A DNA stretch of 64,000 nucleotides from Mytilus galloprovincialis (Eukaryota; Mollusca; Bivalvia; Mytilida; Mytilidae): NCBI RefSeq assembly GCF_965363235.1, contig NC_134845.1:61595261-61659260 (forward strand). The letters are read 5' to 3'. The stretch's first letter is position 1; every line of letters begins with the position of its first letter. Below the pieces are notes generated by a model, which was not told the origin of the DNA, did not search any database, and worked only from the letters and a program-made list of their open reading frames with translations. A program made the position numbers and the translations under genes. Shown in pieces: positions 11,372-55,882 of this stretch.

Positions 11372-11376
11372 GAAAT

Positions 11377-24367: not shown

Positions 24368-24369
24368 TA

Positions 24370-36288: not shown

Positions 36289-37257
36289 TCTTAAGTTAGT
36301 TATTTCATCTGGAATTTATATGTCATCATACATTTTCAAGCATGAAAAAAGATCTACTCTAGCGGCGTATATCTCGCAATATGCTCCCCTGATCGAGTAC
36401 AACTGCCAAAAGCTTAAACAAGAAAGAAGACAAAACAGCGTATGACGGTCCAATATTTTAACAAGTAGAAAGGTTCTTGTCGTCGGATAGGATAAAAAAG
36501 AATAAAAATGCCGAACTTTTGTGACGAAACAAATATTAATTGTGTACATCAGTTGAAAATTATATTGACTATAAAAATTACCTGTAAACGTACTTGAGGC
36601 CCCTCATGGGGGGGGGGGGGTCCTAGTAATCACATAATCACCATTTTTTTGCCAATATAATCACATAATCATTAAATATTTGCTTATCTTTAGTAATCAA
36701 ATAATCATAAACTAAAAATACAGTCCTAGGTAATCAAATAATCATGAAATATTTGGCTTAATAATCAAATAATCATTAAAAAAACGGCCAAGTAATCACA
36801 TAATCAAAAACCCCATGAGGGCCCTCGTACTTGAAATCACGTGGTTTCTTGAACATATTTAGAAAAAGGAGGGTTTTTAACCCGACGAAGAATTGTGAAA
36901 ACTCCGGGTATATTCCTAATGATCTTCTACTTAAAAAGTGAGTATAATCCATTTGTTCATTGTTTTATCTTTTTGATTTGTCGGGAAAATAACGATAACA
37001 CAAATGTTCAATTTTACTTTCGTTTTTACGGTACATTACTCATGGAAGTAATCCACAAATTAACTTGTGCAAGCCCCGACGAGCTTTTAAATTTCGATTT
37101 AAATGTCGATTTGAATCCTACTTTATTTATAGTTTACACCTACATTATATACAATGTAGGTTCACATATATTTGAAATGAACAGATATAAATGTAATAAT
37201 TGATACATGTACATGTGTATAGATACATGTGTATGATAGTGAGGTCGATCAGTGTGG
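36289..37257. repeat. Left flank of unit C, matched to unit B
   Basis: Matches 24368-25110 apart from the inserted element at 36596-36826. Examples are ATCTACTCTAG, CACGTGGTTTCTTGAACAT and GATACATGTACATGTG. No gene is seen. Confidence 0.75.
36596..36826. mobile_element. MITE with GAGG...CCTC ends, 6-bp TSD (family I, copy 1)
   Basis: The 231-bp element begins GAGGCCCCTCATGGGG plus a G run and ends CCCCATGAGGGCCCTC. GTACTT is duplicated on both sides (36590-36595 and 36827-36832). The unduplicated site is visible in unit B (AACGTACTTGATATCACG near 24677). The interior is a degenerate array of TAATCACATAATCA-like motifs. It inserted after units B and C separated. Almost identical to 55653-55882. 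Confidence 0.88.
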
Positions 37258-37439
37258 TTAAATGAGGGTTTTGATGGGGTTAAATGATTAGAGAATAATG
37301 CCCTTAAAAATGAAGATTAGAGAATAACGGGCCAAAAAAATAAAGATTAGAGAAATGCGTGGTCTAAAAATATAATTAATATTGAATAATTAATAAAAGA
37401 AAACACTAAAAATTAAGTGTTTACAGAATTTTCCCTTCT

Positions 37440-40102
37440 TGAAAACAAACTTGGTAAACCTTTTTTGGTTTCGTGATAACAGACTATCAGTCAGGATTCT
37501 ACTTCGTCAAAATTATCTCCCCATTACGCCAGTTCATTTTAACAATCGTAGAAATGGAAGCCATTGTAGGGGTGACGCGCTACCAATTTTGCTCTTGGAA
37601 ACCGATAAATGTATCCACATTGCACCATTACGATCCTTATGTGTCAGTTGTATTTTAAAAGACAAATGTATCAACTAGCTAATGAGTATCAGTTAATAAT
37701 CTTGTCTGCATTGATTCAACATATAACTATTGTCTGATCGGTTGTCAGGGGGAATTTTCGAAAATTCATAAAAATTAAAAAAAATTCTAATTAAATATTT
37801 CGTGGAAGGGCAGACTAGATTTTTTTAGTGTATGAAGACTATAAACCCTAGTTATCACACACAAAACAATAGAAATTTTCGAAGATATGCATTTTCATCA
37901 TCCAACTTGAAAGACTGTCGTCAAGTACTTTCAGTAAAAAAATAGCTATTCGAACACACCTTCAATGTTTTTGTGACTCATCAGATAGGTATTTCACTTG
38001 ACCCATATATTTCATCTTTTAGTACTGTGATTTTTTTGTGTTATAAAGTCAACCTGTAGCTTTAATATATAAAAATGATAGAATCTGAAGTGAGACGATG
38101 TATGAAATATTCTTACTTTGTACGATATCAAGACAAAATACTCAACTCAAACACGCCTTAACATAAAAAGGTGCACTCGATTTTCTCTTTTCGATACAAT
38201 TGTTACCCATTCTTTGGAATTTTTTCTTCAGTCACATAATGGAAGGGCAGACTCGAAAATTACTGAACTAATATATTGATATGTTTTCCGTCCGTGGTAA
38301 TTTTTTCAAACAAATCGGAGGTTATGCATTTTCTTCATCCAACTTGAAAGATACCCATGTCGTCAACTTGATATCTAATTGTTCTGCTTAACTATGTACT
38401 AGATAAATTGAAAACATATACAAATGGTGTTTTTAAAATAAAACACCTCGTTATTGAGAAGAAAATTGCAATTTTGTTTGTTTCTATTAACTTTAAAAAA
38501 TTTTGTCACTATAGTAAACAATACAGTAAACATTTATCGCCTTCTCTAACAAAGAGCTTCGATTCTTTTGTTCTATTTCAACCTGGTTTCCGACTGCTAT
38601 AGGATTCAGTCAATGTTAAAACTTGTTTCCGATACTTCTACTCGGATTTCGGATCTTTCGGTTCATACCTCTACTCGGGTTATTTCGAATGTTACCGTCT
38701 ATCTTTGAAGATGTCAGAGGTCATAGCAGACGAATTTGATGAAAATTCTGTTGTTCCATGTGTGTTTAGCTTTTATTCAAATGAAAAATCTGTGAAGGAG
38801 AGATTCCGCACTAGAATACCAATATGCTTCAAGACTGAGCACACCACTTTGCAGGGCCGTAACTACATGGAGGCAAATGAGGCAAATGCCTCATGTTGGA
38901 AATTTCCATGCCAAGAAATCCTCGCTAAAAATTCCGGTCGACCTTCTACGGCAGTCATTAGTAGCTAAAGATTTGATTTCATTCAAGAAATTAATTTATG
39001 ACCTTCATGTGCGTGTCGCTTAGAACACGGCCATATACCAAATGGTCAATATTAATCATCCATGTAATTTGCTCTATGGGGTGTTTGCCGAATTTCAACG
39101 GAGGCAATGTCTTGGCATGGGAGAAAGGAAGAAAGACCATTCACAATTTGTCTTACATTTGTTTTTCTCTTTTTTAATTAAATAAAAAAATAACCTTTCA
39201 AATATAGAGTTCATAACATACAAATATTCCCTGTGGACACCTCCCCCCTTTTATTTGTGCTCTCTATTTTAAACCCTCGAATTAAGCTTTCGAATCTTAT
39301 TAAAATTAAAACCTTGCTTTCTAACCAATATATTCATGTACCGGAGTCTGAAAGGACAACGAATTTATGAATGACGGTCGACAAATGGAGACATAATGGT
39401 CACACCCAGCAGGCAGGTTGCAGCCGGGCCTTGAAAAAGTATTCAATACATCAGTTCGGCGAAACAAATATTCCGGTCAGATATGGGATTTACATGCAAA
39501 CCCCGGCACCAAAAAATAACACCCGTTTATTATTCATCATGTTCATTTTACGCTAAATAATTATGTTTGAAATTTTTGTTTCTAATAGCAAATGAGTGGA
39601 CAAACTTATTGTTTACAATCCAGATATATACGACCAGAATTTTTGATAAAGACAAAAATCTGGGTAAGATTTTGTTATCTCAAACTTCCCGCTCAAATCA
39701 AATAGTCCGTACCTTATTAGACTTTAAATATATCTAGAGCTTTCTGACTGGGGATCATTATTCAGCTATGTTATCAATAGGCTGGGCGTTTGGGCTTAAA
39801 CATGTGTTCGTAGATAAATAATATTGCTTTGGAACTTTCACGAGAGTGTAATAGAATATTACCTTCTGTTTGGTGGAATTATGAAATAGAAGTCAATACG
39901 TTCTTGCTCAATCTTTGGTCGCTTTGAAGGTGTCATACTTTTCACCCTCAGCATAAGCAAGTGTTACTGTAATCTGAATTTCAAAATGACTGAATGAAGT
40001 TTTTTTCGACGCACTGGTTAACTCCGTCGTTTTGAATCACATGACTTTGACATAACCAATAGTATATTACAGTAGCTTCGAGCGAAAAATATCGTTATAA
40101 GT
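37440..40102. other. Non-coding interior of the insertion in unit C
   Basis: No gene is supported. One ORF at 38705-38968 (MKMSEVIADEFDENSVV...) has no recognised domain and runs into a CAGGGCCGTAACTACATGG stretch that resembles a hAT-type terminus. It could be a captured or interrupted exon, but I would not call it a gene. The rest is AT-rich. Confidence 0.35.
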
Positions 40103-42366
40103 TAAGAAAAGGCCAAGTGAGCTTTTCTTATCACTTGGCGTCCGGCGTCCGTCGTCGTCCGTCGTCCGTCGTCGTCGTTAACTTTTACAAAAATCTTCTC
40201 CTCTGAAACTACCGGGCCAAATTAAACCAAACTTGGCCACAATCATTATTGGGGTATCTAGTTTAAAAAATGTGTCCGTTGACCCGGCCAACCATCCAAG
40301 ATGGCCGCCATGGCTAAAAATAGAACATAGGGGTAAAATTCAGTTTTTGGCTTATAACTCAAAAACCAAAGCATTTAGAGCAAATCTGACATGGGGTAGA
40401 ATTGTTAAACAGGTGAAGATCCATCTGACCCGAAATTTTCAGATGAATCGGATAACCCGTTTTTGGGTTGCTGCCCCTGAATTAGTAATTTACTGGAAAT
40501 TTTGCTGTTTTTGGTTATTATCTTGAATATTATTATAGATAGAGATAAACAGTAAACAGCAATAATGTTCAACAAAGTAAGATTTACAAATAAGTCAACA
40601 TGACCGAAATGGTCAGTTGACCCCTTTAGGAGTTATTGCCCTTTATATTCAATTTTTAACCATTTTTCGTAAATCTTAGTAATCTTTTACAAAAATCTTC
40701 TCCTCTGAAACAACTGCGCCAAATTTATCCAAACTTGGCCACAATTATCTTTGGGGTATCTAGTTTGAAAAATGTGTCCGGTGACCCGGCCAACCAACCA
40801 AGATGGTCGCCACGGCTAAAAATAGAACATAGGGGTAAAATGCAGTTTTTGGCTTGTAACTTAAAAACCAAAGCATTTAGAGCAAATCTTACAGGGGATA
40901 AAATTGTTTATCAGGTCAAGATCTATCTACCCTGAAATTTTCAGATGAATCTGACAATCTGTTGTTGGGTTGCTGCCCCTGAATTGGTAATTTTAAGGAA
41001 ATTTTGCTGGTTTTGGTTATTATCTTGTATATTATTATAGATAGAGATAAACTGTAAACAGCCATTATATTCAACAAAGTAAGATTTACAAATAAGTCAA
41101 CATGACCGAAATGGTAAGACGACCCTTTTAGGAGTTATTGCCCTTTTTAGTCAATTTTTAACCATTTTTCGTAAATCTTAGTAATCTTTTACAAAAATCT
41201 TCTCCTCTGAAACTACTGGGCCAAATCAATCCAAACTTATCCACAATCATCCTTCGGGTATCTAGTTTAAAAAAATGTGTCCGATGACCCGGCCATCCAA
41301 CCAAGATGGCCGCCATGGCTAAAAATAGAACATAGGGGTAAAATGCAGTTTTTGGCTTATAACTCAAAAACCAAAGCGTTAAGTGGAAATCTGACATGGG
41401 TTAAATTGTTTATCAGGTCAAGATCTATCTGCCCTGAATTTTTCAGATAAATCGGACAACCCGTTGTTGGGTTCCTGCCCCTGAATTGGTAATTTTAAGG
41501 AAATTTATCTGTTTTTGGTTATTATCTTGAAAATTATTATAGATAGAAATAAACTGTAAACAGCAATGATGTTCAGCAAAGTAAGATTCACAAATAAGTC
41601 AACATGACTGAAATGGTCAGTTGACCCATATAGGAGTTATTGCCCTTTATAGTCAATTTTTAACCATTTTTCATAAATCTTAGTAATCTTTTACAAAAAT
41701 CTTCTCCTCTGAAACTACTGGGCCAAATTAATCCAACCTTATCCACAATCATCTTTGGGGTATCTAGTTTAAAAAATGTATCCGATGACCCGGCCATCCA
41801 ACCAAGATGGCCCCCATGGCTAAAAATAGAACATAGGGGTAAAATGCAGTTTTTGGCTTATAACTCAAAAACCAAAGCGTTTAGAGCAAATCTGACATGG
41901 GGGTAAAATTGTTAATAAGGTCAAGATCTATCTGCCCTGAAATTTTCAGGTTTATCAGACAACCCGATGTTGGGTTGCTGCCCCTGAATTGGTGATTTTA
42001 ATTAAATTTTGCTGTTTTTGGTTATTGTCTTAAATAGTATTATAGATAACTTAGAGATAACTGTAAACAGCAATAATGTTCAGCAAAGTAAGATTTACAA
42101 ATAAGTCAACATGACCGAAATGGTCAATTGACCCCCTAAGGAGTTATTGTCCTTTATAGTCAATTTTCAACAATTTTTCCACTGAAACTACTGGGCCAAG
42201 TTCATTATAGATAGAGATAATTGTAACAGCAAGGATGTTCAGTAAAGTAAGATGTACAAACACATCACCATCACCAAAATACAGTTTTGTCATGAATCCA
42301 TCTGCTTCCTTTGTTTAATAGTCACATAGACCAAGTTGAGCAACACAGGCTCTTTCGAGCCTCTAG
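40103..42366 (+). mobile_element. Helentron-like element with four ~500-bp core repeats
   Basis: It starts with a CCAAGTGAGC...TCACTTGG palindrome and a GTCCGTCGTCGTCCG microsatellite (40140-40185). About four tandem units follow (AAGATGGYCGCC near 40300, 40800, 41304 and 41804). The end is a hairpin AGGCTCTTTCGAGCCT, CTAG (42363-42366) and T. Same family as 1-1675. Non-coding; the in-frame ORFs are repeat artefacts. Confidence 0.8.
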
Positions 42367-43229
42367 TAACAAATTAAAAAAAAAAAGTCCAAGCAAAAAG
42401 GGGGGGGCGTACGCCCTCTACGCCCCCCTCTGGATCCGCCACTGATATATACAGAAGTCTTAATTACTTAATGTTACCATGGATTAAATAATACTTCCAT
42501 GATGTTACTAAGGAGGTTATATTAGAAGGAGAGTGAACACTCTGCTTGATACAAAATTAGCATCCCCAGGATAGCAGTTCGATCAGAGAAAAATGATAAA
42601 ATTATAAAGAAACCGACATGTTTATCACCCACTTGACATGGCCCTCTGATGTACCGGGCTGTTACCGCGAGTTGTTTTTTTACTCTTTTTTTAAAGATTA
42701 AAGAAAACTGGCGAAAAAAATAGAGAATAATGCGTAAAAATCACTTTTAAAGAATAGACTTATTTTTTGAAGATTAGAGAAAAAAGGGGTGAAAATTAAA
42801 TGTTTACAGAATAACAGACACCCCCCCCCCCCCCCCCCCCATCCAGACCCTCTTAAATCTCATAAACTAGTACATTAGGTAAGTTACATTTTGATTATTA
42901 TGTTTTTAACAAAATGGCCAAACCATATGATTTTGATTTTGTAAGGTGAAACTTAAAAGAAATAAAAGCGACGGGACGGCTGCAAATAAGGTTAAGGTCA
43001 GTATAGCTACTTGAAGTCCAGAAGATTTTTAAATTTGATTTTAATGTCGAGTTGAGTCCTACTTTATTTAGTTTTTAAAAAATCTGAGACCTTAATGTTG
43101 TCCTTAATTTCCGGATTTGTAGGCAATATGATATTCCACGTTTTACTTGAATTCAGATATTTAAAACTAAGGGGACAATACAGAAGGATTTAGATGGAGG
43201 TGCTTCATTTCTGTGTTTTTTTCTCCCTT
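42367..43229. repeat. Repeat debris and duplicated flank upstream of gene C
   Basis: 42400-42445 is the right end of a GGATCCGCCACTG MITE. 42690-42852 is the right end of the family II element with a long C run. 42859-43229 matches unit B (25110-25254 and then 28400-28570). No gene is seen. Confidence 0.6.
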
Positions 43230-45277
43230 TTTATACGACCGCAAAAACTGAAAAATGTTTGGTCGTATATTGGAGGGGGAGGACAGGGGGTAAGGGAGAC
43301 AGGGAGAAAGGGGGTAGGAGAAGGGAGAAAGGGAGTGGGAGAAAGGAGAAAGTGGTAGGAGAAAGGAGAGGAAGGCTGGGAGAAAGGAGAAAAAGTTGGA
43401 GAAAGGAGAAAAAATAAAATATCTCTCCTTTTAAAAAATTATCTAATATTTCAAGAAAAAATATCTCAAAAGGAGATGTTTTATTCTAATGGGAGAAAGG
43501 AGAACGGGGGTAGGAGAAAGGAGAAGAGGGGTGGGAGAAGGGAGAAGGGTACCCCCTGTCCTCCCCCTCATATTGGTATGACGTTGGCGTCGACGTCCGT
43601 CGTCGTCGTCCGAAGACATTTGGTTTTCACTCTCTAACTTTAGTAAAAGAAAATAGAAATCTATGAAATTTAAAAACAAGGTTTATGACCATAAAAGGAA
43701 GGGAGGGATTGTTTTTGGGTGTTTTGGTCCCAACAGTTTAGGAATGAGGGGCCAAAAAGGGCCAAAATAAGCATTTTTCTTGGTTTTCGCACAATAACTT
43801 TAGTAAAATTAAACAGAAATCTATGAAATTTTAACATAAGGTGTATGACCACAAAAGGAAGGTTGGGATTGATTTTGGGAGTTTAAGTCCCAACAGTTTT
43901 GGAATTAGGGGCCCAAAACAGGTCCAAAAATAAGCATTTTTCTTGGTTTTTGCACAATAACTTTAGTATAAGTTAATAGAAATCTATGAAATTTTAACAC
44001 AAGGTTTATGACCACAAAAGGAAGGTTTCGATTGATTTTGGGAGTTTTGGTCCCAATGAATTAGGGGCCAAAAGGGTCCAAAATTAAACTTTGTTTGATT
44101 TTATCAAAAATTGAACTATTGGGGTTCTTTGATATGCCGAATCTAACCGTGTATTTAGATTCTTAATTTTTGGTCCCGTTTTCAAATTGGTCTACATTAA
44201 GGTCCAAAGGGTCCAAAATTAAACTTAGTTTGATTTTAACAAAAATTGAATTCTTGGGGTTCTTTGATATGCTGAATCTAAACATGTACTTAGAATTTTT
44301 TTTTATGGGCCCTGTTTTTAAGTTGGTCTAAATCGGGGTCCAAAATTAAACTTTGTTTGATTTCAACAAAAATTCAATATATGTGGTTCTTCAATATGCC
44401 GAATCTAACCATGTATTTAGATTTTTAATATTTAGGACCGGTTATCAAATTGGTCCACATTGAGGTCTAAAGGGTCCAAAATTGAACTTTATTTGATTTC
44501 ATCAAAATTCGAATTCTTGGGTTTCTTTGATATGATGAATCTAACCATGTATTTAGATTTTGGATATTGGAATACCACAAAGGGATGGTAAGAATTGTCT
44601 TTGGGAGTTATTGCTAAAACCGTTAAGGAATAAGGTGCAAAAAAGAAGGGAAAAGGGTTTCCAGGTTAATGGACAATTACTTAAGTACAAAACATAATTT
44701 AAAAGCAGTGTAAGATTGGTAATTGAAACTCATTTTAATATCTCACCTAAACTGCTCTTAAATTATGTATATTGGAAATTTGCCAAAAACTTTATTATTA
44801 ATAAATTCCATTGGAAATTTGCCAAAAACTTTAGTTTGATGAACTTCATTGGAAATTTGCCAATATGAAATGTTGCATTGGAGTTATCTTTCTTTGTCCA
44901 GAATAGTAGTTAAATCAACTTAAATCATGACTGTATGACATTTAATATTTTATGATGTATTTAAATGAGTAGTTATTGTTGAAAACTCCATTCAATTTTT
45001 CTTATTTCAGATTTCAGAAATGAAAAAAAAATTTCTTCAAATATATATCAAAGGATTTATATTCAACAGCATAGAGAATTGCTCAAAAGCAAAAAAAATA
45101 TTTAAAGTTCATTAGACCACATTCATTCTGTGTCAGAAACCTATGCTGTGTCAACTATTTAATCACAATCCAAATTCAGAGCTGTATCCAGTTTGCATGT
45201 TGTGTCCATACTAGCCCCAACCGTTCAGGGTTAGACCTCTGCGGTCGTATAAAGCTGCGCCCTGTGGAGCATTTGGT
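43230..45277 (+). mobile_element. Helentron-like element with TATACGACCGC subterminal repeats
   Basis: The left end TATACGACCGCAAAA and the right GCGGTCGTATAAAG are inverted near the two ends. After the left end come a GTCGACGTCCGTCGTCG microsatellite (43588-43610) and diverged tandem units (ATAGAAATCTATGAAATTTT ... GGTTTATGACCACAAAAGG; then GGTTCTTTGATATG...GAATCTAAC units). A GC-rich terminal stem (GCTGCGCCCTGTGGAGC) closes it. Gene B's flank has the empty site (TTTTCTCTATTGTGTACACC). It carries the nested MITE at 43273-43569. Confidence 0.75.
43273..43569. mobile_element. MITE with 20-bp GAGGG ends, 6-bp TSD (family IV)
   Basis: GAGGGGGAGGACAGGGGGTA at the left is perfectly inverted at the right. 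ATATTG is duplicated (43267-43272 and 43570-43575). The 297-bp interior consists of GGGAGAAAGGAGAA-type repeats with an inverted tail. It is nested inside the Helentron-like element, interrupting GTCGTATATTGGTATGACG. Confidence 0.88.
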
Positions 45278-45774
45278 TCTCGATTGTGTACACCATCATA
45301 CTGTGATTCGTTTTACAAAAATGTTCGTATGTTTCATAGATGACAACGGAAATGTTCAAAATGGTGTTACCACAATTATAATAGATCCGGTCCTCTTTTT
45401 CTCGAATGTGACCTTCCAAATAAGACTTATCACCTCACATGTTCGTACATGAGTAACATGATCTGCTTTCCAGTCCAAACCACATGAAATCATCCCCTCC
45501 CCCTTTTTGGTGGAGTTCGTGTTTCTCAGTCTTCTATATTGTGTTTTGTGTATTGTCTTTTCTTCGTTTGCAAATTCATTGTCAGTTTGATTTCGACTTA
45601 TGAACTTAAATGTCCCTTTGGTAATTCCATTGAGAGTGTACAAAAAAATTGAAAGACGAGATGCCTGGTATACAACAGCACTTTCTTATTTCCTTCACCT
45701 TTACCTTGATTTTTATTGTATGTTTGCAACTAGAATTTCTTTTTTAATTTTCAATATTTTATTTCAGAGTCATT
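45278..45774 (+). promoter_or_regulatory. 5' flank and leader of TRIM-like gene C
   Basis: Matches gene B's flank (GATTGTGTACACCATCATAC; GGTGTTACCA; TCTCGAATGTGACC; TTTGGTGGAGTTCGTGTT; TGTGTTTTGTG). These are parts of the retroelement tail plus its upstream sequence. A splice acceptor (TATTTCAG) ends at 45767, again 7 nt before the ATG. Confidence 0.5.
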
Positions 45775-47460
45775 ATGTCCGATTCTACAGCTCTGTGTGG
45801 CGTGTGCTGTCTTCGTCACCTTTCCAAACCATCGACTGGTTGGTGTCTAGAATGTGAAGAAGGACTTTGTATAGACTGCAAAGAACATCATAGTTTGCTT
45901 AAGGCAACACGGAATCATACTATCATTCCTATTACCGAGTATCAAAATTTACCAGAAAACGTGTTAGAAATCACAAGAAACTGTAAAAAACACAATGAAA
46001 TTTTGCAAATATTTTGCAAAAAACACGATAGTCCCTGCTGTAGGAAATGTATCATCGAAACACACAATAACTGCACAAATTTAATCGAAATAGAAGATTA
46101 CATAAAAGACATTAAGTCCTCGGCTAGGTTTCAAGAGGTTGAAGAAATAATGAATGAAACAGCTGAAAATATCAAAAGAATCCGTATCAACAGGGAGGAA
46201 AACCTGAAATCATTACAGGAAGAAAAAAAGAAAATAGAAAACGATATTTTACAAACCAGGATTAAAATCAACAACCATCTAGATAAACTACAGGCCGATC
46301 TTATTCAAACCCTATATGCAAAGGTGGAGAAAGAAAACGAAAAAATACAACAGGTACTGAAATCGTTAGAGAAAAAGCAGTGCCAAATAAAAGAATATCA
46401 AAATACCTTTGAAAACATTAAGAAATACGCGTCAGATGTTCAACTTTTTCTCTCTATGAAACTAATGGAAACCAACATGGTGAAAGATGAGGAATTCATT
46501 CGATCGTTAATAGAAAGCGAGAGCCTTTGTCAAGCGATGTTAGTAATGAAAGACACTTTTGACACTGAAACAATAACTGTCAGTATGCCGTACATAGGGG
46601 AATTAGATGTAGATTACTCTCCAAGTCAAGTCAGTATAATGAAAAAGAAAGAAAAGCAAGCGCAGATGATGATGACCAAAACGACCATAAGGTCAATTAC
46701 AAACTTCGCCCTTAAGATTGAAAAGAAGATTAGCGCATGTGGCGTTGGGGTGACGGGATGTACATTACTACCACATGGCAAAATTGCATTTGCAAATGAG
46801 AAGAAAAGAAACATTACAGTAGTAAAATCCGACGGGTCACTTGACTTTAAGATCGATTTATACCCGTACATACCTTTTGACATCACATATATTCCAAATA
46901 CCAATACTATCGCTGCTACTTCTAGCAAATCAAATGACATTAAAATCCTTGATGTAAATACAAAAAAGGTGCTGAAAACGTACTCTTTAGACTCAACCTG
47001 TGCTGGTATATCGTATTCAGAACAAAAGATTATTTTATGCTCCAAAGAAAAGGGAATACTTGAATTGAATCTACGTGATGGATCAGTAAAGACCATTGTA
47101 TCGGACAAAATGGATAATTACTCTCATGTTAGTCTTCTAGGGGATAAGATCTACTACACAAAGCCAAATAATAAATCAGTGATATGTTGTGATCTACAAG
47201 GAAACATACAGTGGACATTCCAAAATCCAAAGCTATTAAGACCATGCGGTGTCACTGTAGATACTGACGGAAATGTGTTCGTCGCTTGCCATAGCTCTAA
47301 CAATGTTGCTGTCATCTCTTCGGACGGACAACAACACAAACAAATGTTGTCTTCCAGTGATGGTATCGATTGGCCAAGTGGTTTGAGCTATGATAGAGCT
47401 AACAACCAGTTACTCGTTACAAATTATTTGCAAGGTGCAGTTTTTTATAATGTAACATGA
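45775..47460 (+). CDS. TRIM-like protein C (B-box, coiled coil, beta-propeller; no RING)
   Basis: A single 561-residue coding exon. Two B-boxes lie at residues 8-48 and 70-100; the non-ligand Cys86 of A and B is Ser here (HDSPCC). A coiled coil and a propeller-like C-terminal half follow, with GVTVDTDGNVFVAC near residue 495. The gene is a mosaic. Its first ~350 nt follow gene B (AAGGCAACACGGAAYCATA). From about 46190 the coiled-coil part is nearly identical to gene A (for example 46260-46440 against 2460-2640), then an individual stretch follows (about 46690-47040), then near-identity with A again to about 47215. This points to unequal crossover or gene conversion between tandem copies. It looks intact. 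Function as for genes A and B, by family inference only. Confidence 0.88.
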   Translation: MSDSTALCGVCCLRHLSKPSTGWCLECEEGLCIDCKEHHSLLKATRNHTIIPITEYQNLPENVLEITRNCKKHNEILQIFCKKHDSPCCRKCIIETHNNCTNLIEIEDYIKDIKSSARFQEVEEIMNETAENIKRIRINREENLKSLQEEKKKIENDILQTRIKINNHLDKLQADLIQTLYAKVEKENEKIQQVLKSLEKKQCQIKEYQNTFENIKKYASDVQLFLSMKLMETNMVKDEEFIRSLIESESLCQAMLVMKDTFDTETITVSMPYIGELDVDYSPSQVSIMKKKEKQAQMMMTKTTIRSITNFALKIEKKISACGVGVTGCTLLPHGKIAFANEKKRNITVVKSDGSLDFKIDLYPYIPFDITYIPNTNTIAATSSKSNDIKILDVNTKKVLKTYSLDSTCAGISYSEQKIILCSKEKGILELNLRDGSVKTIVSDKMDNYSHVSLLGDKIYYTKPNNKSVICCDLQGNIQWTFQNPKLLRPCGVTVDTDGNVFVACHSSNNVAVISSDGQQHKQMLSSSDGIDWPSGLSYDRANNQLLVTNYLQGAVFYNVT

Positions 47461-50400
47461 GTAGAATTATATCATACAGATATGTAGTTTTATTTTCCTA
47501 TTTGAGAGTTGCCGAACCAAATGTTTGTAGAAGCTTATAACAAATAATAATTCAGTTTTAAAAATAAATCTTTCACTGTGATAAAAAAAAATAAAGCTTG
47601 TATGTATATTCTTATTGCTGTATATAATGCATTCAGTATAGATATTTGGGTTCAACTTCAACGGGAACGCTCAAAGCATAATTCTTGGGAAGTCAAAAGA
47701 TGGATTTGATTTTTAAAAGGGAACTATCGTTCGATTTGATTTCAAATGAAGATTTTTTTTATTAAATCCAGTATGCAAAAGGAACGTTTCAGTAAATTAT
47801 AGACCCACTAGAATGAAAACGTAATCCAGGAGCAAAATAAAGGCAAAAGTAGTTTAACGCTATTTAATTAATTGTTCCATCGTCTAAAATAAAATAAAAG
47901 GATACTTCTCTTAGCGCAAATTTATCATATGGAAAAGATATATGTTATAGAAACGATGATGATGGATAGAAATTAACACTTGACCTACCCGAGCTAAAAA
48001 AAACATATACAGAAATCAGAAGGTATGGTATGAGTGCCAACGAGACAACTCTACATCCAAGTCACAATGCTTAAAAGGTTAACAATTGTAGATATAGTTT
48101 GTCTAAAATCCTAAGCTGTGATTACTAAACAGGATTAAAGCACAGCTTACACCAAGGAATTAGATTAGAGATGACATTCTTATCAAAGCTTCTAAATTCT
48201 GGACTTGGTCCCTAGCATTTTGCTGAAGATGTCCTTTTTGCTTTTGTTAATCTTAAGTATTCTGACAGACAAAAACGTTTTCTGTTTCAAAAAAGTAAAT
48301 TAAACTAATTATTTGCACCCACAACCACACACAAAGAGAACTACGTATAAGATTTATATAGACGGTACACCTACTATCAAAAGGTAAAATACAAAACTAC
48401 CGAACTCAAATCGAAATAACCCTTATGGTGTCATACCACCAATTACTCCCTCAAATTTAGAATTATGTGAAAGTAGGCCTACTCGGACAAAAAATAGTGC
48501 ATTTGATGTCATTGTTCACCTAAACTAACCAACAAATTTGCAGAAATGAAAGTTTTGTTGAAAGAGAAATATATTAAGACCATTTTGAGCCAAAATTTAC
48601 CTGTCTATGAGTTTGCATTAAAAATTGAGGATTAATGCGCTCCATAGTATACTAATTTAAGATTTCCAGAAAACCAGGGGTTTATTTAGTGGTACCTCCT
48701 TTCGGAAGCTCTCTGCTTTCTTATATGATTTTGAATGTATGTTGAAAATTGGCATGCAGAAAGGTGACACCTATACAATTCAGGATATACTTAGTTTCTA
48801 TGAAGTTAAACTTAAGGTAAAATATTTAGAAAGCTGTGAAAATTGCAAAATTTGGTTGAACAGATAGGGACTTTTAATTGGTGGTATGACACCTTATCAA
48901 ACGTCAAAATCAAACCCTCAACCACATCAAACGAATAGAAAACAAATATCGTATTCCTGTCTTGATACCGGCATTTCCTTACATAGAAAGTGGCGAAATA
49001 AACATGCAAGTTTTTATAGCATAGTTTAACTTTTCAATCTTATCGCAGTCGCATAAAATTTCATTATATTGACAACAATGTGATGAAAAAAACAAACAGA
49101 CATAACAGGTAAAAATGTCAAAAATAAGGGGCAAGAACGTGAACTCATTTGAAGCCATACGGATTAAGAAATAACGTCCAACACAACGGTTAAAATATGG
49201 ATACCATTAGGTAAAATTAAATTGGAAGAAGATACAATGAAGAAAATTGATAACTGTATATTGAAAATTATAACAGATAGTATTAATAATTAAATGTACT
49301 CTGATCAATTGGGAAAATGGCGAAACATCAATGAAAACACTACACAGAAAAACCATTAAATAACAGGTTCGCAACCAGATAAAAACAGGGACAATTCGCT
49401 GTTTCAGATTCTAATGCATCATGGTTAATATTTTCAAAAATTGTACACCAAAACGTTCTGATTGGTTAAAAGTGTCATAAACAATGAAAATTTAACAAAT
49501 GACGTGACGTTATTTTCATTTTGGGGTACGAACAATGAAATTACCTATAGTCCTTAAGATTCAAAAACGGCCAATTCACAATTACTCCTGGAAGTAAATT
49601 ATTCCTACTCGTTAATGCATTCTTTATTTGCAAAATAAGCAAAACCCTATTTTAGTCATATCAAATACATAGACAAAACAAACATAAGAAAAACTCGACA
49701 ATAATAGAATGCATGTTAAAAACAGTTGATCTCCTTTCCAGATCTTTCCGCAGTTCTAATGACTCTTTCGTAAATGAAACAACTGTTTTTATATCATTTG
49801 GTGTTGATGGATTTAGTATAATCACGAGTTTGTCAGTTAGGTTAAGTGTATTTTAATTGACATATTTTTGTATATTTTATTAATATTTAGAAAGATTTTT
49901 CATTTATTTTTATTAATTTCACAGTTGAAAAAATGTGGAAATAGTCATCTAATATATTACATATTTTTCATTTTCTTTCGTTTCTTGGTATTTTTGTATA
50001 TCGTCCAGTTTCTATTATAAGACAATGGTCGCTTGTTCTTGGTTAACATTTTTTTGTTTCTTTATTTGGGTGCGATATGTAGTATTCCATTTGGTCGTTT
50101 ATATTAAATTTAAGAAATTTATATAGATATATTTTACTATTTTCATGCATGCTACAAATGATGCCAGTCTACAAAAACATATTGGGACAAAATGCAATCA
50201 AACCGAACAACAATCTCAATAAAAGTGCGAAATGAAAAATCGATGTCATGTAGATTGCTCTAACAATCATTTTGTCTTTTCGTAAATGGAATTTCAATCA
50301 GCCATGTCATCGATTTTCATAAATCAATCAACCATATAATGTAATGTACAATGTATATAAAAATAGAAAAGCAAAAATAAGAATGTAAATGTATTTCCAA

Positions 50401-50841
50401 AATCTCACATCACACACACGCACATCAAATATGACTTTTACATAGAGGCAAATTATTGAAATGTAACAAATTAATAACGAAAGAAAAATTCGCTAGATCT
50501 GAATGGTTTTGAGAAATAATATTCTCTAACAATAGTATTCCAAATCAGCTTTTACTGTATAAAATAATACTGAAAGTTCCCAATAGAATCACAATATAAG
50601 ACAAATAATTTCTTAATGCACTAAAAAATACAAAATATGTAGTCGATATATCCGAGGAATAACGCCTTAATTGCTGTTCTTGATCTTGACAATAGTTTTA
50701 AGGTATTAGTGATAAACCATATAATCTCTTACAGGTTAACATTAAAGTGAAGACGGTATATATAAGCTCAACATATAAACGCGCTGTACTCATCAATGAA
50801 CGTTATGTATGTAAGAAAAAGTTATCAATGAATTGTATATA
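47461..50841. repeat. 3' flank of gene C, duplicate of gene A's flank
   Basis: Collinear with 3662-6520 apart from the MITE at 48427-48893 and small indels. AATAAA signals lie near 47563-47595. No coding sequence is seen; the antisense ORFs are not conserved. Confidence 0.75.
48427..48893. mobile_element. MITE with GGTGTCATACCACC ends, 4-bp TSD
   Basis: The ends GGTGTCATACCACCAATTA and TAATTGGTGGTATGACACC are perfect 19-bp inverted repeats. TTAT is duplicated (48423-48426 and 48894-48897). The empty site is intact at 4615-4625 in unit A (TCCCTTATCAAACG). 467 bp, non-coding. A decayed relative in the other orientation is at about 56375-56850. Confidence 0.9.
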
Positions 50842-51937
50842 CAAGAGTGCACACGCTAAAATGTCTCGCCTTCTCTATTACTAATCATTGAAATTATGTT
50901 GATAGTCCTAAATAAAAAGCTTTATTACAACTGTCATATAACCGTAACATTAACCATGAAAACTAAACATTGACCAAAGAACCATGAAAATGAGGTCAAG
51001 GTCAGATGAACCATGTAAAGCAGACATATATACAGCTAACAATTCTTCCATACAACACATATAGTTGACCTATTGCTTATACTAGTAGTTTAAAAAGAAC
51101 AGACCAAAACACAAACTTAACACTGAGCGATGAACCATGAAAATGAGATCAAGGTGAAATAAAACCTGCGCGACAGACATTTAGATCATAAAATATTTCC
51201 ATACACCAAATATATAGTTGACCTATTGCAATTAGTATTAGAAAAAAAACCAAAACTCAATAACTTAACTGTATGATTACTGAACCATGAACATAATGTC
51301 AAGGTCAGATGACACCTGTCAGCTACACATGTACACCTTACAGTCATTCCATACACCAAATATAGTAGACCTATTGCATACAGTATAAGAAAAACAGACC
51401 AAAACACAAAAACTTAACTATAACCACTGAACACTGAAAATGAGCTAGTCAATGTCAGGTGACACTTGCCAGTTGGTCATGTAAACCTTACAGTCCTTCC
51501 AAACATCAAATATACAAGACCTTTTGATTATAGTATCTGAGATATGGACTTGACCACAAAAACTTCAACTTTGATCTCTGATCCATGAAATGAGGTCGAG
51601 GTCAAGTGAAAACTGTCTCAGGGGCATGAGGACCATGCAAGGTACGCAAATACCAAATATAGTTATCCTATTACTTCTAATAAGAATTTAACATTACAAA
51701 AAATCTGAACTTTTTTTCAAGTAGTCACTGAACCATGAAAATGAGGTCAAGGACATTGTACATGTGACTGATGGAAACTTCTTAACATGAGGCATCTATA
51801 TATAAAGTATGAAGCATCCAAGTCTTTCACCTTCTAAAATATTAAGCTTTTAAGAAGTTAGCTAAAGCCGCCGCCGCCGCCGCTGGATTCACTATCCCTA
51901 TGTCGAGCTTCCTTTGACTTTTGCTCGACAAAAACTA
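50842..51937 (+). mobile_element. Helentron-like element with about six 150-bp core repeats
   Basis: Absent from the matching place in unit A (about 6535). The left end is CAAGAGTGCACACGCTAAAA. Core units carry TGAACCATGAAAATGAGGTC near 50978, 51132, 51284, 51429, 51580 and 51730. A GCCGCCGCCGCCGCCGC microsatellite follows (51866-51882), then a terminal hairpin with stem TGTCGAGC/GCTCGACA and AAAAA. Confidence 0.75.
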
Positions 51938-52310
51938 GTAACGTTACTTTATGAATTGTACCATTCGTCGCAACTCAGAGGATTTGGTATCGACATCTAA
52001 AGTTTTGTAGGAAACATAATTAACAAAGGTTTAATTGATTTATTATTAGTCAGCCGTAAGCGGTTGAGCTAGGGAAGTACTTCTTTAGCTCAGTCGGTTA
52101 GCGCGCTGCCTTGTAACACAGAGGTCCCGGGTTCGAGTCCCGGTGGAGACAAGCAATTTTGTAATGAAATTTGTGCTCTCCGGTTACAACAGCATAAGGG
52201 GTCATATCTTGAAAAAAAATGTATTGTTGCTATCTGTTAGCTAGTTTACGGTATTATAGCTGTTGGTGCTTTTTTGTATTGTCTTCCATTGTAGGTAATT
52301 TTATGTACAC
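51938..52310. repeat. End of the duplicated flank plus patch shared with 9090-9185
   Basis: 51938-52046 resumes the match to 6540-6650. 52197-52292 matches 9090-9185. Between them lies a tRNA-like sequence. No gene is seen. Confidence 0.55.
52079..52151 (+). pseudogene. tRNA-like sequence (Thr-TGT-like), degenerate
   Basis: A clear A box (TAGCTCAGTCGGTTAG) and B box (GGTTCGAGTCC), a good T stem (CCGGG/CCCGG) and a CTTGTAA-like anticodon loop are present. The 5' acceptor strand (ACTTCTT) does not pair with the 3' strand (TGGAGAC), and the anticodon stem is mismatched. It is more likely a tRNA pseudogene or SINE head than a working tRNA. Confidence 0.55.
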
Positions 52311-52430
52311 CAGGGGCGGATCCAGTCATTTTTAAAAGGGGATTCCCAATCCAGGATAAAAGGGGATCCAACCATATTTCCCCATTCAAATGTATTGACA
52401 GGATCCGCCCTCCTTCTGGATCCGCCACTG
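52311..52430 (+). mobile_element. CAGGGGCGGATCCAG MITE, 120 bp
   Basis: CAGGGGCGGATCCAG at the left is inverted at the right as CTGGATCCGCCACTG. The flanks TACAC and TACAT suggest a 5-bp duplication. Related copies: 56591-56746, 33655-33855 (minus), the right end at 42426-42440, and probably 61720-62440. Such ends are hAT-like. Confidence 0.75.
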
Positions 52431-52577
52431 TACATTTTGTAATCAAATATACAAAGGGCTAAAAACAGGACAAATCTCGTCACGTTATAAATACGTGTTT
52501 CTGTCTCAAATCAACAGCTTGTTCTGTGTTAAATATTAATGCTTTAATATTTTTCTCAATCGGATAAATATGTGGGA

Positions 52578-53600
52578 TAGCTTGACATATATCATGACCT
52601 ATTGTTTAACAATTTTCTATTGGTGAAATTTCGTCTTTGACTTTTACTAGTATATTTCGTCAGGTTGTTATCTTTGAAGTTTAACCAACATAATTTCCCT
52701 CATGAAGCTCGTTTCTTATTATTTTTGTATGGTTCAGGCACTTACCACGCTGACTAAATCCAACATTTCGAATATGTATAGAATATATATATATATATAT
52801 AAACATCCGTCTTAACTTACATTTAATATAGATGAGTATATATTCATTATGATAGCCTCTTTATTTTGTGTATATCTTAATTCCTTGTTTTCAAAATTCC
52901 AATAGGGAACACACTTTATATAATTGTATCAATAAACCAATTTTTTGAGACGTTTCGTCCATTGGCCTTCAAAATAAATAAAGAACTGAACAAAAAATTG
53001 GTTTATTGATACATTTATATATCTTAATTGTAAAATTGAAAATGTATAACTATGTAAATTTTAAATAAAACTATAAAACATATTGTCATTTCTAAACTTT
53101 GAAACCATACATACATTTTTTTTGTAGTTGACAGTGTTAAATAGTGTATCTATTGTGTGCAATAATGTATAATTGTTCTTATAACTTTATCATTGTTATA
53201 ACAGTGTGCTTAAAGATACTGAAGCCTAACAAAAGAGGGACGAAAGATACCAAAGGGACAGTCAAACTCATAAATCTAAAACAAACTGACAACGCCATGG
53301 CTAAAAATGAAAAAGACAAACAGAAAAAAAGCGAATCTAACTTGAAGCATAAAATCAGCTATTACATTATGTCATATAATATGTTACTTTCAATCTCATA
53401 AAAAGATGAAGCTTCTGTATGATGTACGTTAATGGTTAGGTGGTGAGAGTTCTTAAATAGGGAGCCTTAAAAAGTATTACAACCCCCTTTTCATGACAAA
53501 CAAAATAAATAAAATCAAATGTTAGTTTAAACTTAATATACAGAAAAACGTATACAGTAGTGTTGGTAGCTGCAACCCCATTTTGACTTAACTTTGTTTT
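52578..53600. repeat. 3' end of unit C, matched to unit B
   Basis: Similar to 35058-35520. It contains a foldback (52925-53013) and a retroelement-tail fragment on the minus strand (53230-53335, AAGAGGGACGAAAGATACC to AATGAAAAAGACAAAC). An ORF at 53144-53401 overlaps that fragment and is not taken as a gene. Confidence 0.6.
52925..53013. repeat. 89-bp foldback element
   Basis: TGTATCAATAAACCAATTTT at the left is the exact inverse of the right end; the full arm is 23 bp. The spacer contains GAGACGTTTCGTCC. Probably a tiny MITE. Confidence 0.65.
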
Positions 53601-54040
53601 TATAAATAAGAAATGCTTGCCTACACGTACTTGCTTCACAACTTTGGACGACCCCCGCTACCTAAACATACAAGAACGAGCTTTACAGTAACCTGAATAC
53701 ACATACTAGTATACTTATTTATAAAGTACATTATGTGTTGTCATAATATAAGTATTTTGGACTTTGTAAAGTGATAATATAAGTTAAAATCAGAAAATAA
53801 CATCAAATCCAGTATAATCCAGTCATTATTATGAAATAAGTATAAAGTTTAATTTGATAACCGAGATGAGATATAGATGAAGTTCGTTGTCTTATAATTG
53901 TTTGGTATTAATCTTTGATATCGCTTAATAAGGATCAGTCTTTGTTATTATAAATACGCTATACATTTTGACGCATTCTTCGCCTAGCAAAACATTGTGT
54001 TTGGACCTTTCATTGACACAGAAAGCTTTAACATTCAGTA
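53601..54040. other. Non-coding stretch
   Basis: AT-rich; nothing recognised. Confidence 0.35.
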
Positions 54041-54044
54041 AGTA

Positions 54045-54303
54045 TCAATAATTAATGAATTCATTCATTCAAATTTCTGTTCGTTTACTCAAAAAATATC
54101 ATTTGATTTGTTTGTTCGTTCGTTCATTCATTCGTTCATTTATTCGTTCGATTGCTTAACACTCCTTCCTTCCTTCCTTCGTTCCTTCATTCCTTGATTT
54201 CTACTTTCTTTCCTTCTATTATCGAATTTCTTCCTTCCTTTATTCCTTCATTCATATTGATTGATTGATTGATAGATTGGTTGATTCGTTGATTGATTGA
54301 TTA

Positions 54304-54347
<44 letters not shown>

Positions 54348-54350
54348 CAT
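54045..54350. repeat. Simple repeats: TTCA/TTCG, CCTT and GATT runs
   Basis: Successive tetranucleotide runs: CATTCATTC and CGTTCGTTC-like (54045-54150), CCTTCCTTCCTTCG and relatives (54165-54255), and GATTGATTGATT for about 90 bases (54260-54345). Confidence 0.9.
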
Positions 54351-54593
54351 TCATAACCATGTTTGTAAAAATAAGGAAATGTGATATAATTGTTATTTAT
54401 ACCACTATATCAACCTGAAACCAAATAATTAGGATGACCAATCATGTAAACAACTTAAGGGCACTGTACGACCTTCAATTGATAATGAGTAAACCCAATG
54501 CAATTTTGTATACTATATTTAGCTATAAAATTTCCAAAATAACAAATTAATATAAACTAAATCGTTTTCACTATTTTCCAAGTACAAATGTAC

Positions 54594-54895
54594 GAGGGTG
54601 GTAGTGGGGGTACCTTCATGACGAATAACGTAAAAAAATCTTACCGAATGGCCTTTTAAACGGTAATTTTAGGTGCATATGACGATAAAATGTGCACTTT
54701 CTATTAGACGATAAAAAAAAATGTTTTGGACGAGTACGGTAACGAAAATTCTTTGAGACCCCTGGCGAATCACGATAAGGATCTTTTGACGAATCATCTC
54801 TGACGAATCATGGTAAAATTTTAATCAATATGACGCTAACGGTAGCCAAAAATGACCATTTCACGCCTGGCATTAAAGGGCATTATACCACCCTC
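54594..54895. mobile_element. MITE with GAGGGTGGTA ends, 6-bp TSD (family III)
   Basis: GAGGGTGGTA at the left is inverted as TACCACCCTC at the right. The flanks ATGTAC (54588-54593) and ATGTAT (54896-54901) are a 6-bp duplication with one change. The 302-bp interior repeats degenerate GACGAATCA/ACGATAA motifs. It lies about 120 bases upstream of the adenylation gene's first coding exon. Confidence 0.75.
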
Positions 54896-55021
54896 ATGTA
54901 TTGGTTTTAAGCGTTTCTGAATAATTCAGTTAATCTATGAAAATTGCTTCAGACGCATAATATTATTTTATTTATATTAAAAAAAAATGCATTTTAGTTC
55001 TTTCTTTTTAGAAGCGGCAAA

Positions 55022-55277
55022 ATGAGCACGGGACCCACCTACACGCATCAAGGATTGCTTCATCAAATGTTTTTCAGGCAGGCAAAGACAACCCCGGAAA
55101 ATGTTGCTGTTGTTGAAGAAAGCGGGAAAGAAATAAAATTCAGAAATTTGGATGAAAATTCTGACAAACTTGGAAAGCATTTAGTTTACAATGGCGTAAC
55201 CCCCAATGCATGTGTTGGAATTTATTTGGATAAAAGTATTGAATACACAACGACATACATTGCAATCTTAAAGGCGG
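55022..55277 (+). CDS. Adenylation-domain protein (NRPS/acyl-CoA synthetase type), exon 1
   Basis: First coding exon of a gene that continues past the right edge of the window. An acceptor-like TTTCTTTTTAG ends at 55011, ten bases before the ATG, so a 5'-UTR intron is likely. The 85 complete codons start MSTGPTYTHQGLLHQMFFRQ and cover the N-terminal part of an AMP-forming (ANL superfamily) domain, including TTPENVAVV and the start of core A2 (AILKAG). These enzymes activate a carboxylic or amino acid as the acyl-AMP. Exon 1 ends after the first base of a Gly codon, with donor GTTAGT at 55278. Candidate names are NRPS-like, ebony-like, L-aminoadipate reductase-like or AASDH-like. The part needed to decide is outside the window. 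Confidence 0.8.
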
Positions 55278-55652
55278 GTTAGTAGTTTTCATGTTTTCTT
55301 ATATTAATTGCTTAACATCGAGTGGAATTGCATCACGTTTTGGACAAGGATACCTTTGATATTTATACGGACTCTACTGGTTCACATTTCCATATGTTTC
55401 GAAGTTGTGAAACTTTCGTATTTTCTAGAAACACTGGTAAGCCCAAAATAACTGGGGTTATTGAATAGTATCCCTACTTGGATCCTTGGGACATACATTG
55501 CCTTTTGTATATTATAAGTTTGTTTACTAACGTTAGTATATCTAAAGTCCCTGCTATAAGATATGCTGTTCTGTAAGTAAGTAATGTAATCTTTATAAAT
55601 ATTTATAAACACATACATTGATATTTTGATCGTGGGAAGTAATGTTATTAAT

Positions 55653-55882
55653 GAGGCCCCTCATGGGGGGGGGGGGTTCTAGTAATCACATAATCACCAT
55701 TTTTTTGCCAATATAATCACATAGTCATTAAATATTTGCTTATCTTTAGTAATCAAATAATCATAAACTAAAAATACTGTCCTAGGTAATCAAATAATCA
55801 TGAAATATTTGGCTTAATAATCAAATAATCATTAAAAAAACGGCCAAGTAATCACATCATCAAAAACCCCATGAGGGCCCTC
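55653..55882. mobile_element. MITE with GAGG...CCTC ends, 6-bp TSD (family I, copy 2)
   Basis: Almost identical to 36596-36826, including the G run after CTCATGGGG and the TAATCACATAATCA-type interior. Flanked by ATTAAT on both sides (55647-55652 and 55883-55888). The different target at an unrelated place, with the same TSD length, confirms the element's limits. Confidence 0.9.

Follow-up and report, generated by a model that had tools for sequence, protein, structure and literature searches.

GAGG-ended elements with 6-bp target duplications and one-strand motif arrays in a 64-kb window of the mussel Mytilus galloprovincialis

MITEs account for a considerable share of the genomes of bivalves, and they were left unclassified when these were surveyed (PMC10294476). 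Two putative MITEs with terminal inverted repeats (TIRs) and target duplications (TSDs), DTCM1 and DTCM2, are described from Donax (PMC5139131). Pearl, with repeats of about 160 bp, has been re-categorised as a Helentron, Cg_HINE is described in the same account as having subterminal repeats, a palindrome and no TSDs, and in Crassostrea gigas HINE group 2 related flanks enclose unrelated repeats, which the authors attribute to independent incorporation (PMC7492417). Galileo families have about 40 bp of end in common, and of four internal direct repeats two are reported to hold a THAP transposase site, given as absent from other subfamilies (PMC3688188); Tetris has internal tandem repeats within its ends (PMC4079207). 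BrickBuilt, a MITE of Porphyromonas gingivalis, contains a minisatellite as well as promoter elements (PMC4596501). TSDs of 6 bp are listed for IS3EU/GingerRoot and Polinton/Maverick, the termini of IS3EU/GingerRoot being TA..TA, occasionally TG..CA in GingerRoot (PMC10045372). Dada, found in oyster U6 arrays, makes TSDs of 6-7 bp, inserts into small RNA genes and has no TIR according to its authors, who give about 8 bp for the TSDs of hAT and P (PMC3706591). Here, we describe mussel elements with GAGG..CCTC ends, a TSD length of 6 bp, empty sites for two of the insertions, and rows of conserved motifs that lie on a single strand among poorly conserved spacers.

Five intervals and their target duplications

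In a 64-kb window, which is the whole stretch of DNA analysed, an initial annotation had placed five elements of four families, and each was recovered where it had been placed. Family I is present in two copies. Copy 1 (36596-36826, minus strand, 231 bp, TSD GTACTT) has the ends GAGGCCCCTCATGGGG and GAGGGCCCTCATGGGG, a 13-G run in the left end and six TAATCAmATAATCA motifs inside; copy 2 (55653-55882, minus strand, 230 bp, TSD ATTAAT, 12-G run) is identical to it in 226 of 231 columns, one of the five differences being a gap. The array of copy 2 is in register with that of copy 1, with two of the six motifs one base different each, and the identical layout in both copies shows that the array travelled with the element. 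Family II has its outer bounds at 37264-42852 (plus strand, 5589 bp, TSD TTAAAT) and the ends GAGGGTTTTGATGGGG and GAGGGTCTGGATGGGG, the right one with a 20-C run. Its left array (37286-37357, plus strand) consists of three GATTAGAGAA motifs, with steps of 29 and 30 bp between them, and its right array (42696-42814, plus strand, as in the left array) of four degenerate GATTAGAGAATAA-like motifs; the interior of about 5.2 kb contains another repeat, and a search inside the element for a nested-insertion boundary gave no clean one. Family IV (43273-43569, plus strand, 297 bp, TSD ATATTG) has perfect 20-bp inverted ends, GAGGGGGAGGACAGGGGGTA, and eight GGAGAArGGAGA motifs, which follow one another every 19-21 bp except for one step of 94. 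Family III (54594-54895, minus strand, 302 bp, TSD ATGTAC/ATGTAT) has 10-bp inverted ends, GAGGGTGGTA, and GACGA motifs, six of them exact, with spacers of unequal length; it is the weakest member of the set.

The 6-bp duplication is exact in four of the five intervals and has one mismatch in III, and the inverted ends agree at 15/16 positions in both copies of I, 14/16 in II, 10/10 in III and 20/20 in IV, which together with the scans below bears out the duplications and similar inverted ends first reported. The G run noted just inside an end is present, but it sits on a GGGG that is already part of the inverted end.

Empty paralogous sites in the window confirm the insertion of family I copy 1 and of family II. 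The joined flanks of family I copy 1 match 24628-24741 (plus strand), where GTACTT stands once, with 99.1% identity over 114 columns. Those of family II match 25060-25184 (plus strand) with 89.9% identity over 129 columns; the 5.6 kb are missing there, and one TTAAGT is found in place of the two TTAAAT of the filled site. Joined flanks of III, IV and the second copy of I gave self matches and short ones of at most 29 columns within the window.

Intervals of this kind exceed the shuffled expectation. Over spans of 100-800 bp, GAGG..CCTC with an exact 6-bp TSD was observed three times, compared with a mean of 0.08 and a maximum of 1 in 100 dinucleotide shuffles; with up to one TSD mismatch the count was five, compared with 0.92 (maximum 4). 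For GAGGG..CCCTC over the same spans we observed one interval with an exact TSD and two with up to one mismatch, compared with 0.0 and 0.04 in shuffled sequence. One of the five GAGG..CCTC intervals obtained with up to one mismatch, at 33616-34360, was unsupported and is not counted as an element. In a wider scan (GAGG..CCTC, 100-12000 bp, ends alike at 10 or more of 14 positions, exact TSDs of 3-10 bp) there were four matches at length 6, namely both copies of I, II and IV, and none at lengths 3, 5, 7, 8, 9 or 10 in the 64-kb window; the single length-4 match, spanning 7.9 kb, was put down to chance. At length 6 alone, 60 shuffles of 50-bp blocks gave a mean of 0.03 and a maximum of 1. An anchor-free scan (14-bp TIRs with at most three mismatches, TSDs of 4-10 bp, 80-1200 bp, a low-complexity filter and no shuffles) returned 36 intervals over all lengths; the four with a TSD of 6 bp were the two family I copies and, at 53509 and 60849, AT-rich pairs with three mismatches each. 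II, III and IV were not recovered by it, and III and IV therefore depend partly on the GAGG anchor.

That the intervals are chance assemblies of GAGG and CCTC words with short direct repeats can scarcely be right. Such an origin would suit the many chance-like pairs of the anchor-free scan, the unsupported interval that one mismatch adds, and III, which alone combines a TSD mismatch with a 10-bp inverted end; however, it is refuted for I and II by the empty sites, and the shuffle controls, the two copies of I and the 20/20 ends and exact TSD of IV all speak against it.

Kinship of ends and interiors

Families I and II have a longer end pattern than GAGGG in common, GAGGGnnnnnATGGGG. On both strands of the 64 kb all four exact matches to it are element ends, as are seven of the eight matches with up to one mismatch, and 40 second-order Markov sequences gave means of 0.00 and 0.38, respectively; the pattern was derived from these same ends, and these counts therefore show its rarity and are no independent test. 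The left end of III has the ATGGGG pattern of I and II with one mismatch, and ATGGGG is absent at positions 11-16 from the right end of III and from both ends of IV. What III and IV have in common with I and II is limited to GAGGG and the TSD length, plus a near-ATGGGG for the left end of III only.

As a general statement, the earlier description of the interiors as unrelated does not hold. Reverse-complemented family I aligns with the left part of II from the terminal base over about 170 bp with a score of 55, compared with a maximum of 38 in 200 shuffles. With the ends removed, the score was reached by 4/1000 shuffles and 7/1000 window segments, and in the anchored test by 27/3000 segments; I against the right part of II, likewise without ends, showed no excess (198/1000). 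The left and right parts of II align with a score of 84 (200-shuffle maximum 55). For I against II the comparisons are suggestive only, and the two families may have related interiors. For III, neither alignment nor the ends-removed and anchored tests gave an interior relation to I or II. Family IV, taken forward and without its ends, gave 5/1000 against the right part of II, 28/1000 against I and 53/1000 against the left part of II, and with ends kept 3 to 6 of 200 against I and the left part of II. We do not claim kinship for the IV interior, given that its purine-rich make-up may explain the low values and that anchoring at the end gave no relation to the other families.

These data also bear on whether independent families, with III and IV unrelated to I and II, converged on a short G-rich end, GAGGG, and a 6-bp TSD. 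We consider this unlikely, given that the enrichment falls at length 6 only and that the left end of III is one mismatch away from the I/II pattern, although it would accommodate ends that lack ATGGGG (the right one of III, both of IV), the imperfect TSD of III and its lack of an interior relation to I or II, and interior values of IV that are low (5/1000, 28/1000), perhaps through purine-rich make-up, and do not recur when anchored.

Motif arrays and spacers

Each family has its own conserved short motif array, as initially annotated, and the motifs all share a single orientation, with 39 core-word matches against 0 for the opposite strand, the second copy of I being left out. Identity among motifs and among spacers is 0.96 vs 0.51 in family I (shuffled spacers 0.50), 0.70 vs 0.36 in III (0.36) and 0.73 vs 0.31 in the right array of II (0.31), a contrast that is inflated, given that the motifs were picked for conservation. 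Spacers of the left array of II reach 0.65 compared with 0.56 shuffled (24/200 shuffles reach the observed value), and slight spacer similarity is also seen in IV (12/200) and in the second copy of I (21/200). TAATCAmATAATCA has no match outside family I in the window at 0-1 mismatch, and 11 of the 15 one-mismatch matches to the short motif of III lie outside III. Steps of 21 bp in IV and of 31 bp in I might suggest helical phasing of the motifs, an idea that we set aside, III being unphased and II offering only three sites.

The suggestion that the elements capture short tandem arrays is not borne out, given that the spacers are at, or barely above, shuffled similarity. Capture, or growth in place by slippage and gap repair in the course of transposition, so that one pair of ends would carry functionless tandem arrays differing by family, is a possible but rather doubtful account. 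Tandem Repeats Finder reports arrays in I, the left part of II and IV, the spacers of the last two are slightly alike, single-strand orientation is consistent with tandem growth, and related flanks with unrelated repeats have a precedent in Crassostrea gigas HINE group 2 (PMC7492417). However, spacers of I and III are close to shuffled, and tandem duplication would need a constraint on the motif only; the same array stands in both copies of I, and its motif occurs nowhere else in the window at 0-1 mismatch.

The one-way orientation, the spacing and the divergent spacers would also suit putative host-factor sites (promoter, insulator or silencer-like) that the elements carry and that have no part in transposition. 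TAATCA, in the family I motif, is similar to homeodomain sites, and an insulator array of spaced Su(Hw) sites is present in gypsy; both would fit such a role. The minisatellite and promoter elements of BrickBuilt would fit it too (PMC4596501). A host-factor role of this kind is decidedly improbable in our judgement, given that four families would require four different motifs.

Candidate mechanism and comparison with known systems

The account that we prefer, and to which we give about even weight, is that these are MITE-like cut-and-paste elements moved by a transposase in trans, with family-specific arrays of candidate protein-binding motifs. An unseen transposase would recognise the inverted end, GAGGG followed in I and II by nnnnnATGGGG, and would cut the target with a 6-bp stagger that leaves the 6-bp duplication. 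The one-strand row of motifs is a predicted binding-site array, most likely recognised by the DNA-binding domain of the transposase itself and otherwise by a host factor, and the motifs would differ by family because binding specificity has diverged, with the cleavage ends kept similar. We prefer this account because the TSD is fixed at 6 bp, GAGGGnnnnnATGGGG is rare off the elements, empty sites exist, motifs and spacers contrast, the two copies of I have different TSDs, the strand bias is 39 to 0, and Galileo offers a precedent (PMC3688188). From the sequence we infer one transposase lineage for all families, a binding role for the array, and a single array-bearing ancestor for I and II. Several observations stand against the account. 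All motifs point one way; sites for two-end transposases are usually inverted between the ends. Spacers are slightly similar in the left part of II, IV and the second copy of I, no transposase exceeded the cut-off, and III and IV have little end sequence in common with I and II. An extension that we hold tentatively, and think unlikely, is that the GAGGGnnnnnATGGGG ends and 6-bp TSD belong to a transposase lineage that falls outside the superfamilies described so far and drives several non-autonomous families in a single genome, each consisting almost entirely of a one-strand repeat-spacer array whose motif tracks the DNA-binding specificity of the family; if so, the arrays would record turnover of transposase recognition with the cleavage ends unchanged.

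None of the 17 window ORFs of at least 120 aa (stop to stop) matched a DNA-transposon transposase above cut-off. A helix-turn-helix match below cut-off lies outside the elements at 23763-24191. Family II, at 5.6 kb, was considered as an autonomous element and rejected, all 30 overlapping ORFs of at least 50 aa having been scanned against Pfam with none above the curated cut-off; the best E-values, 0.0035 (Phage_BR0599), 0.018 (Pox_E10) and 0.059 (CBM_21), were taken as chance. No Rfam family reached the gathering threshold in 36000-57000. In public contigs the family I array pattern had nine viral-contig matches, by eye five near-copies of one array and otherwise simple arrays, none flanked at up to 400 bases by an upstream GAGGS and a downstream SCCTC. 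The family I end pattern had no match in these contigs, and the joint I/II end pattern had two in genome contigs and one in a viral contig, which over 300 bases does not differ from one of the two genome matches; each contains a single TGATTA and lacks CCCTC over about 500 bases, and they were dismissed as chance. Full-text searches with the I and II array strings returned only papers with unrelated titles, and keyword searches of open-licence literature, with query terms other than the ends, yielded no listing or passage describing these ends.

If the ends and the 6-bp scar recur genome-wide with different arrays, they would offer a route to the transposase, allow the internal arrays to be tested as recognition sites, and provide a TIR/TSD counterpart to the known Helentron-borne oyster arrays.

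Compared with MITEs, the elements have terminal inverted repeats and a TSD of fixed length and are short and non-coding, I, III and IV being too short for a transposase at 230-302 bp; II, at 5.6 kb, lies outside the MITE range. The ends fit neither IS3EU/GingerRoot, which is alike in TSD length and differs from GAGG..CCTC in its termini, nor Dada, which has a similar TSD, whereas the mussel elements have TIRs and no Rfam match in 36000-57000. The 6-bp TSD also differs from that of hAT and P; some hAT groups have shorter TSDs, so that the difference makes this assignment less likely. Polinton/Maverick agrees in its 6-bp TSD; these are large self-synthesising elements with other termini, and the autonomous element has DNA polymerase B and a retroviral-like integrase, neither of which was matched in the 30 scanned ORFs overlapping II. 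Pearl, CvA, DTC84, MgE and Cg_HINE, also from bivalves, are comparable in being short, non-coding and mobile and in having a repeat array at the centre, but the mussel elements differ from the Helentron/HINE (Pearl) type in having TIRs and a 6-bp TSD, and from Pearl and Cg_HINE in having 9-14 bp motifs with variable spacers. Galileo/Foldback-like elements of Drosophila, including Tetris/DAIBAM, provide a parallel in a common end with subfamily-specific internal transposase sites, although they are larger, have repeats of about 220 bp in long inverted ends and, for Tetris, a TSD of 8-10 bp. BrickBuilt resembles the mussel elements in having a minisatellite inside a MITE but is bacterial, with 23-bp repeats without spacers. 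Overall, the mussel elements resemble non-autonomous transposons of a broadly known type and not a new kind of system.

Target duplications and empty sites

The initial annotation had placed five small elements with GAGGG-type ends and 6-bp target site duplications (TSDs) in the window, and all five intervals are found where it put them: family I at 36596-36826 (231 bp, TSD GTACTT) and 55653-55882 (230 bp, ATTAAT), family II at 37264-42852 (5,589 bp, TTAAAT), family III at 54594-54895 (302 bp, ATGTAC/ATGTAT) and family IV at 43273-43569 (297 bp, ATATTG). The TSD is exact in four of the five and has one mismatch in family III, and the inverted ends agree at 15/16 positions in both family I copies, 14/16 in II, 10/10 in III and 20/20 in IV. 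When every GAGG..CCTC pair spaced by 100 bp to 12 kb with ends at least 10/14 alike was scanned, exact duplications of 6 bp occurred four times (both family I copies, II and IV) and of 4 bp once; the latter spans 7.9 kb and was attributed to chance. Lengths 3, 5, 7, 8, 9 and 10 gave no match in the window. For length 6, the only one given a shuffle control, 60 local shuffles averaged 0.03 such pairs and never exceeded 1. With one TSD mismatch permitted at short spans the excess was lower (5 found versus 0.92 in shuffles, maximum 4); one of these five intervals, 33616-34360, was not accepted as an element. A generic scan with neither GAGG requirement nor shuffle control returned 36 intervals at lengths 4-10, including four at length 6 (both family I copies and two AT-rich pairs), and failed to list II (over length), III (short ends) and IV (low-complexity filter).

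A diverged second copy of the region bearing I and II also lies in the window. This local duplication aligns 23521-25259 with 35620-42993 in four blocks of 91.8-94.7% identity, one copy being without I and II. The joined flanks of the first family I copy match 24628-24741 unbroken at a single GTACTT (99.1% over 114 columns), and those of II match 25060-25184 unbroken at a single TTAAGT with a few extra bases adjoining (89.9% over 129 columns). Family I and the 5.6-kb family II are thus present in one duplicate copy and missing in the other, as expected of insertions. The joined flanks of III, IV and the second family I copy gave self matches and short matches only in the window. Because the two family I copies have different TSDs and are identical in 226/231 columns (the differences being four substitutions and one base of a G run), their sequences point to recent and independent movement.

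In DDE/D transposition, inverted ends combined with a fixed duplication length are the mark of a cut-and-paste transposase. Given both features here, a transposase of this kind with a 6-bp stagger would move these elements.

Shared ends and motif-array interiors

In addition to GAGGG, families I and II have ATGGGG in common at positions 11-16 of their ends. On both window strands GAGGGnnnnnATGGGG has four exact matches, every one an element end, and four one-mismatch matches, three of them the left ends of III and both family I copies and the other at 8030; 40 second-order Markov sequences gave means of 0.00 exact and 0.38 with up to one mismatch. This shows that GAGGGnnnnnATGGGG is rare, not that it was independently predicted, as the pattern was derived from these very ends. 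Family IV has its own perfect 20-bp inverted end. The G run sits on the GGGG of the inverted end and differs by one base between the family I copies, and for these reasons we read it as probable homopolymer growth at one end.

The interiors had been described as unrelated, which stands for III against I or II (alignment, end-stripped and anchored tests all gave no relation), but I and the left array of II (37286-37357) may be related. The reverse complement of I can be aligned to II left over about 170 bp, starting at base 1, with a score of 55 (maximum of 200 shuffles, 38); the opposite orientation is not distinct from shuffles (42/200 reach its score). With ends stripped, the score is reached by 4/1000 shuffles and also by 7/1000 segments from elsewhere in the window, and when anchored just inside the end it is equalled by 27/3000 segments and by 18/1028 of similar base composition. 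Against the right array of II (42696-42814), end-stripped I is not distinct (198/1000). The interior of IV gave 5/1000 against II right and 28/1000 against I, low values that were not reproduced when anchored at the end. Since their ends are shared, descent of I and II from a common array-bearing ancestor is possible, even likely, if not proven.

Each family carries its core word on one strand only, with 12 exact matches in the first family I copy, 3 in II left, 2 in II right, 6 in III and 16 in IV, or 39 on the motif strand versus 0 opposite (second family I copy left out). Motif identity exceeds spacer identity throughout, a contrast somewhat inflated by selecting motifs for likeness: 0.96 for the six copies of the 14-base family I motif (spacers 0.51, shuffled 0.50, reached by 50/200), 0.70 in III (0.36, 0.36, 84/200) and 0.73 in II right (0.31, 0.31, 128/200). 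Slight spacer likeness is seen in II left (motifs 0.85; spacers 0.65, shuffled 0.56, 24/200), IV (0.95; 0.44, 0.41, 12/200) and the second family I copy (0.91; 0.53, 0.50, 21/200). Tandem Repeats Finder called arrays in I, II left and IV. We read I and III as conserved words spaced by unlike sequence, not ordinary tandem arrays, and II left and IV as intermediate between the two. The family I motif was not found in the window outside family I at 0-1 mismatch, and 11 of 15 one-mismatch matches to the 9-base III motif lie outside III. The arrays may be host-factor sites, or have arisen by neutral array growth.

Coding capacity and neighbouring features

The two family II arrays are separated by about 5.2 kb, including a block also found at 1-1676. 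This block (40182-42367 and 1-1676) is a repeat with internal units of roughly 500 bp, with two window copies, one within II. All 30 listed ORFs of at least 50 aa overlapping II were scanned and none matched at the curated Pfam cut-off; inner boundaries of a nested insertion were sought in II and none could be placed. Family II may be a short element enlarged by later insertions or the decayed remains of a larger one. All 17 window ORFs of at least 120 aa (stop to stop) were scanned, yielding retroelement reverse transcriptase and integrase and B-box proteins; no match to a DNA-transposon transposase passed the cut-off. A single sub-threshold helix-turn-helix match came from a 142-aa ORF at 23763-24191 (minus strand), within the duplicate region (helix-turn-helix/paired-like, best E 0.0021). 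It might be a Tc1/mariner-type N-terminus, and the duplicate would then perhaps itself be part of a transposon.

The window further holds a short inverted-repeat element at 48427-48893 (GGTGTCATACCACC ends, 14/14, TSD TTAT), whose joined flanks match an empty paralogous site at 4555-4684 (91.9% over 135 columns), and a 400-bp TTAA-type MITE candidate at 56908-57307 (inverted ends GGATGTACTTAGGT, 14/14, TTAA flanks). An LTR retrotransposon at 10767-15203 has 605-bp LTRs, 97.7% identical, and its integrase domains (ORFs 11666-13377) precede those of reverse transcriptase and RNase H (13378-14319), an order known from Gmr1-like gypsy elements. Three related ORFs of 570-599 aa (1862-3661, 29240-30952, 45748-47460) match the B-box zinc finger, two above cut-off and the first 0.1 bit short; they have weak NHL/beta-propeller matches, lie in longer duplicated segments and may represent TRIM-like genes that expanded locally.

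Comparison with known systems

Superfamilies with 6-bp duplications include IS3EU/GingerRoot, with termini TA..TA or occasionally TG..CA, and Polinton (both PMC10045372), and Dada, which lacks inverted repeats at its termini and inserts into small RNA genes (PMC3706591). IS3EU/GingerRoot was rejected on its ends, which are unlike those here, as was Dada, given that the elements here have inverted repeats. In their proposed function, the arrays most resemble the internal transposase sites of Galileo, whose families have about 40 bp of end in common, with a THAP transposase site that is absent from other subfamilies and occurs in two of the four direct repeats of the interior (PMC3688188). The main point against this likeness is that the motifs here are all on one strand. 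MITE-like elements carrying internal tandem repeats have already been described in bivalves, and in Crassostrea gigas related flanks surround unrelated repeats (PMC7492417); these are Helentrons without duplications, whereas the elements here have both terminal inverted repeats and TSDs, and are thus a variant of a known theme.
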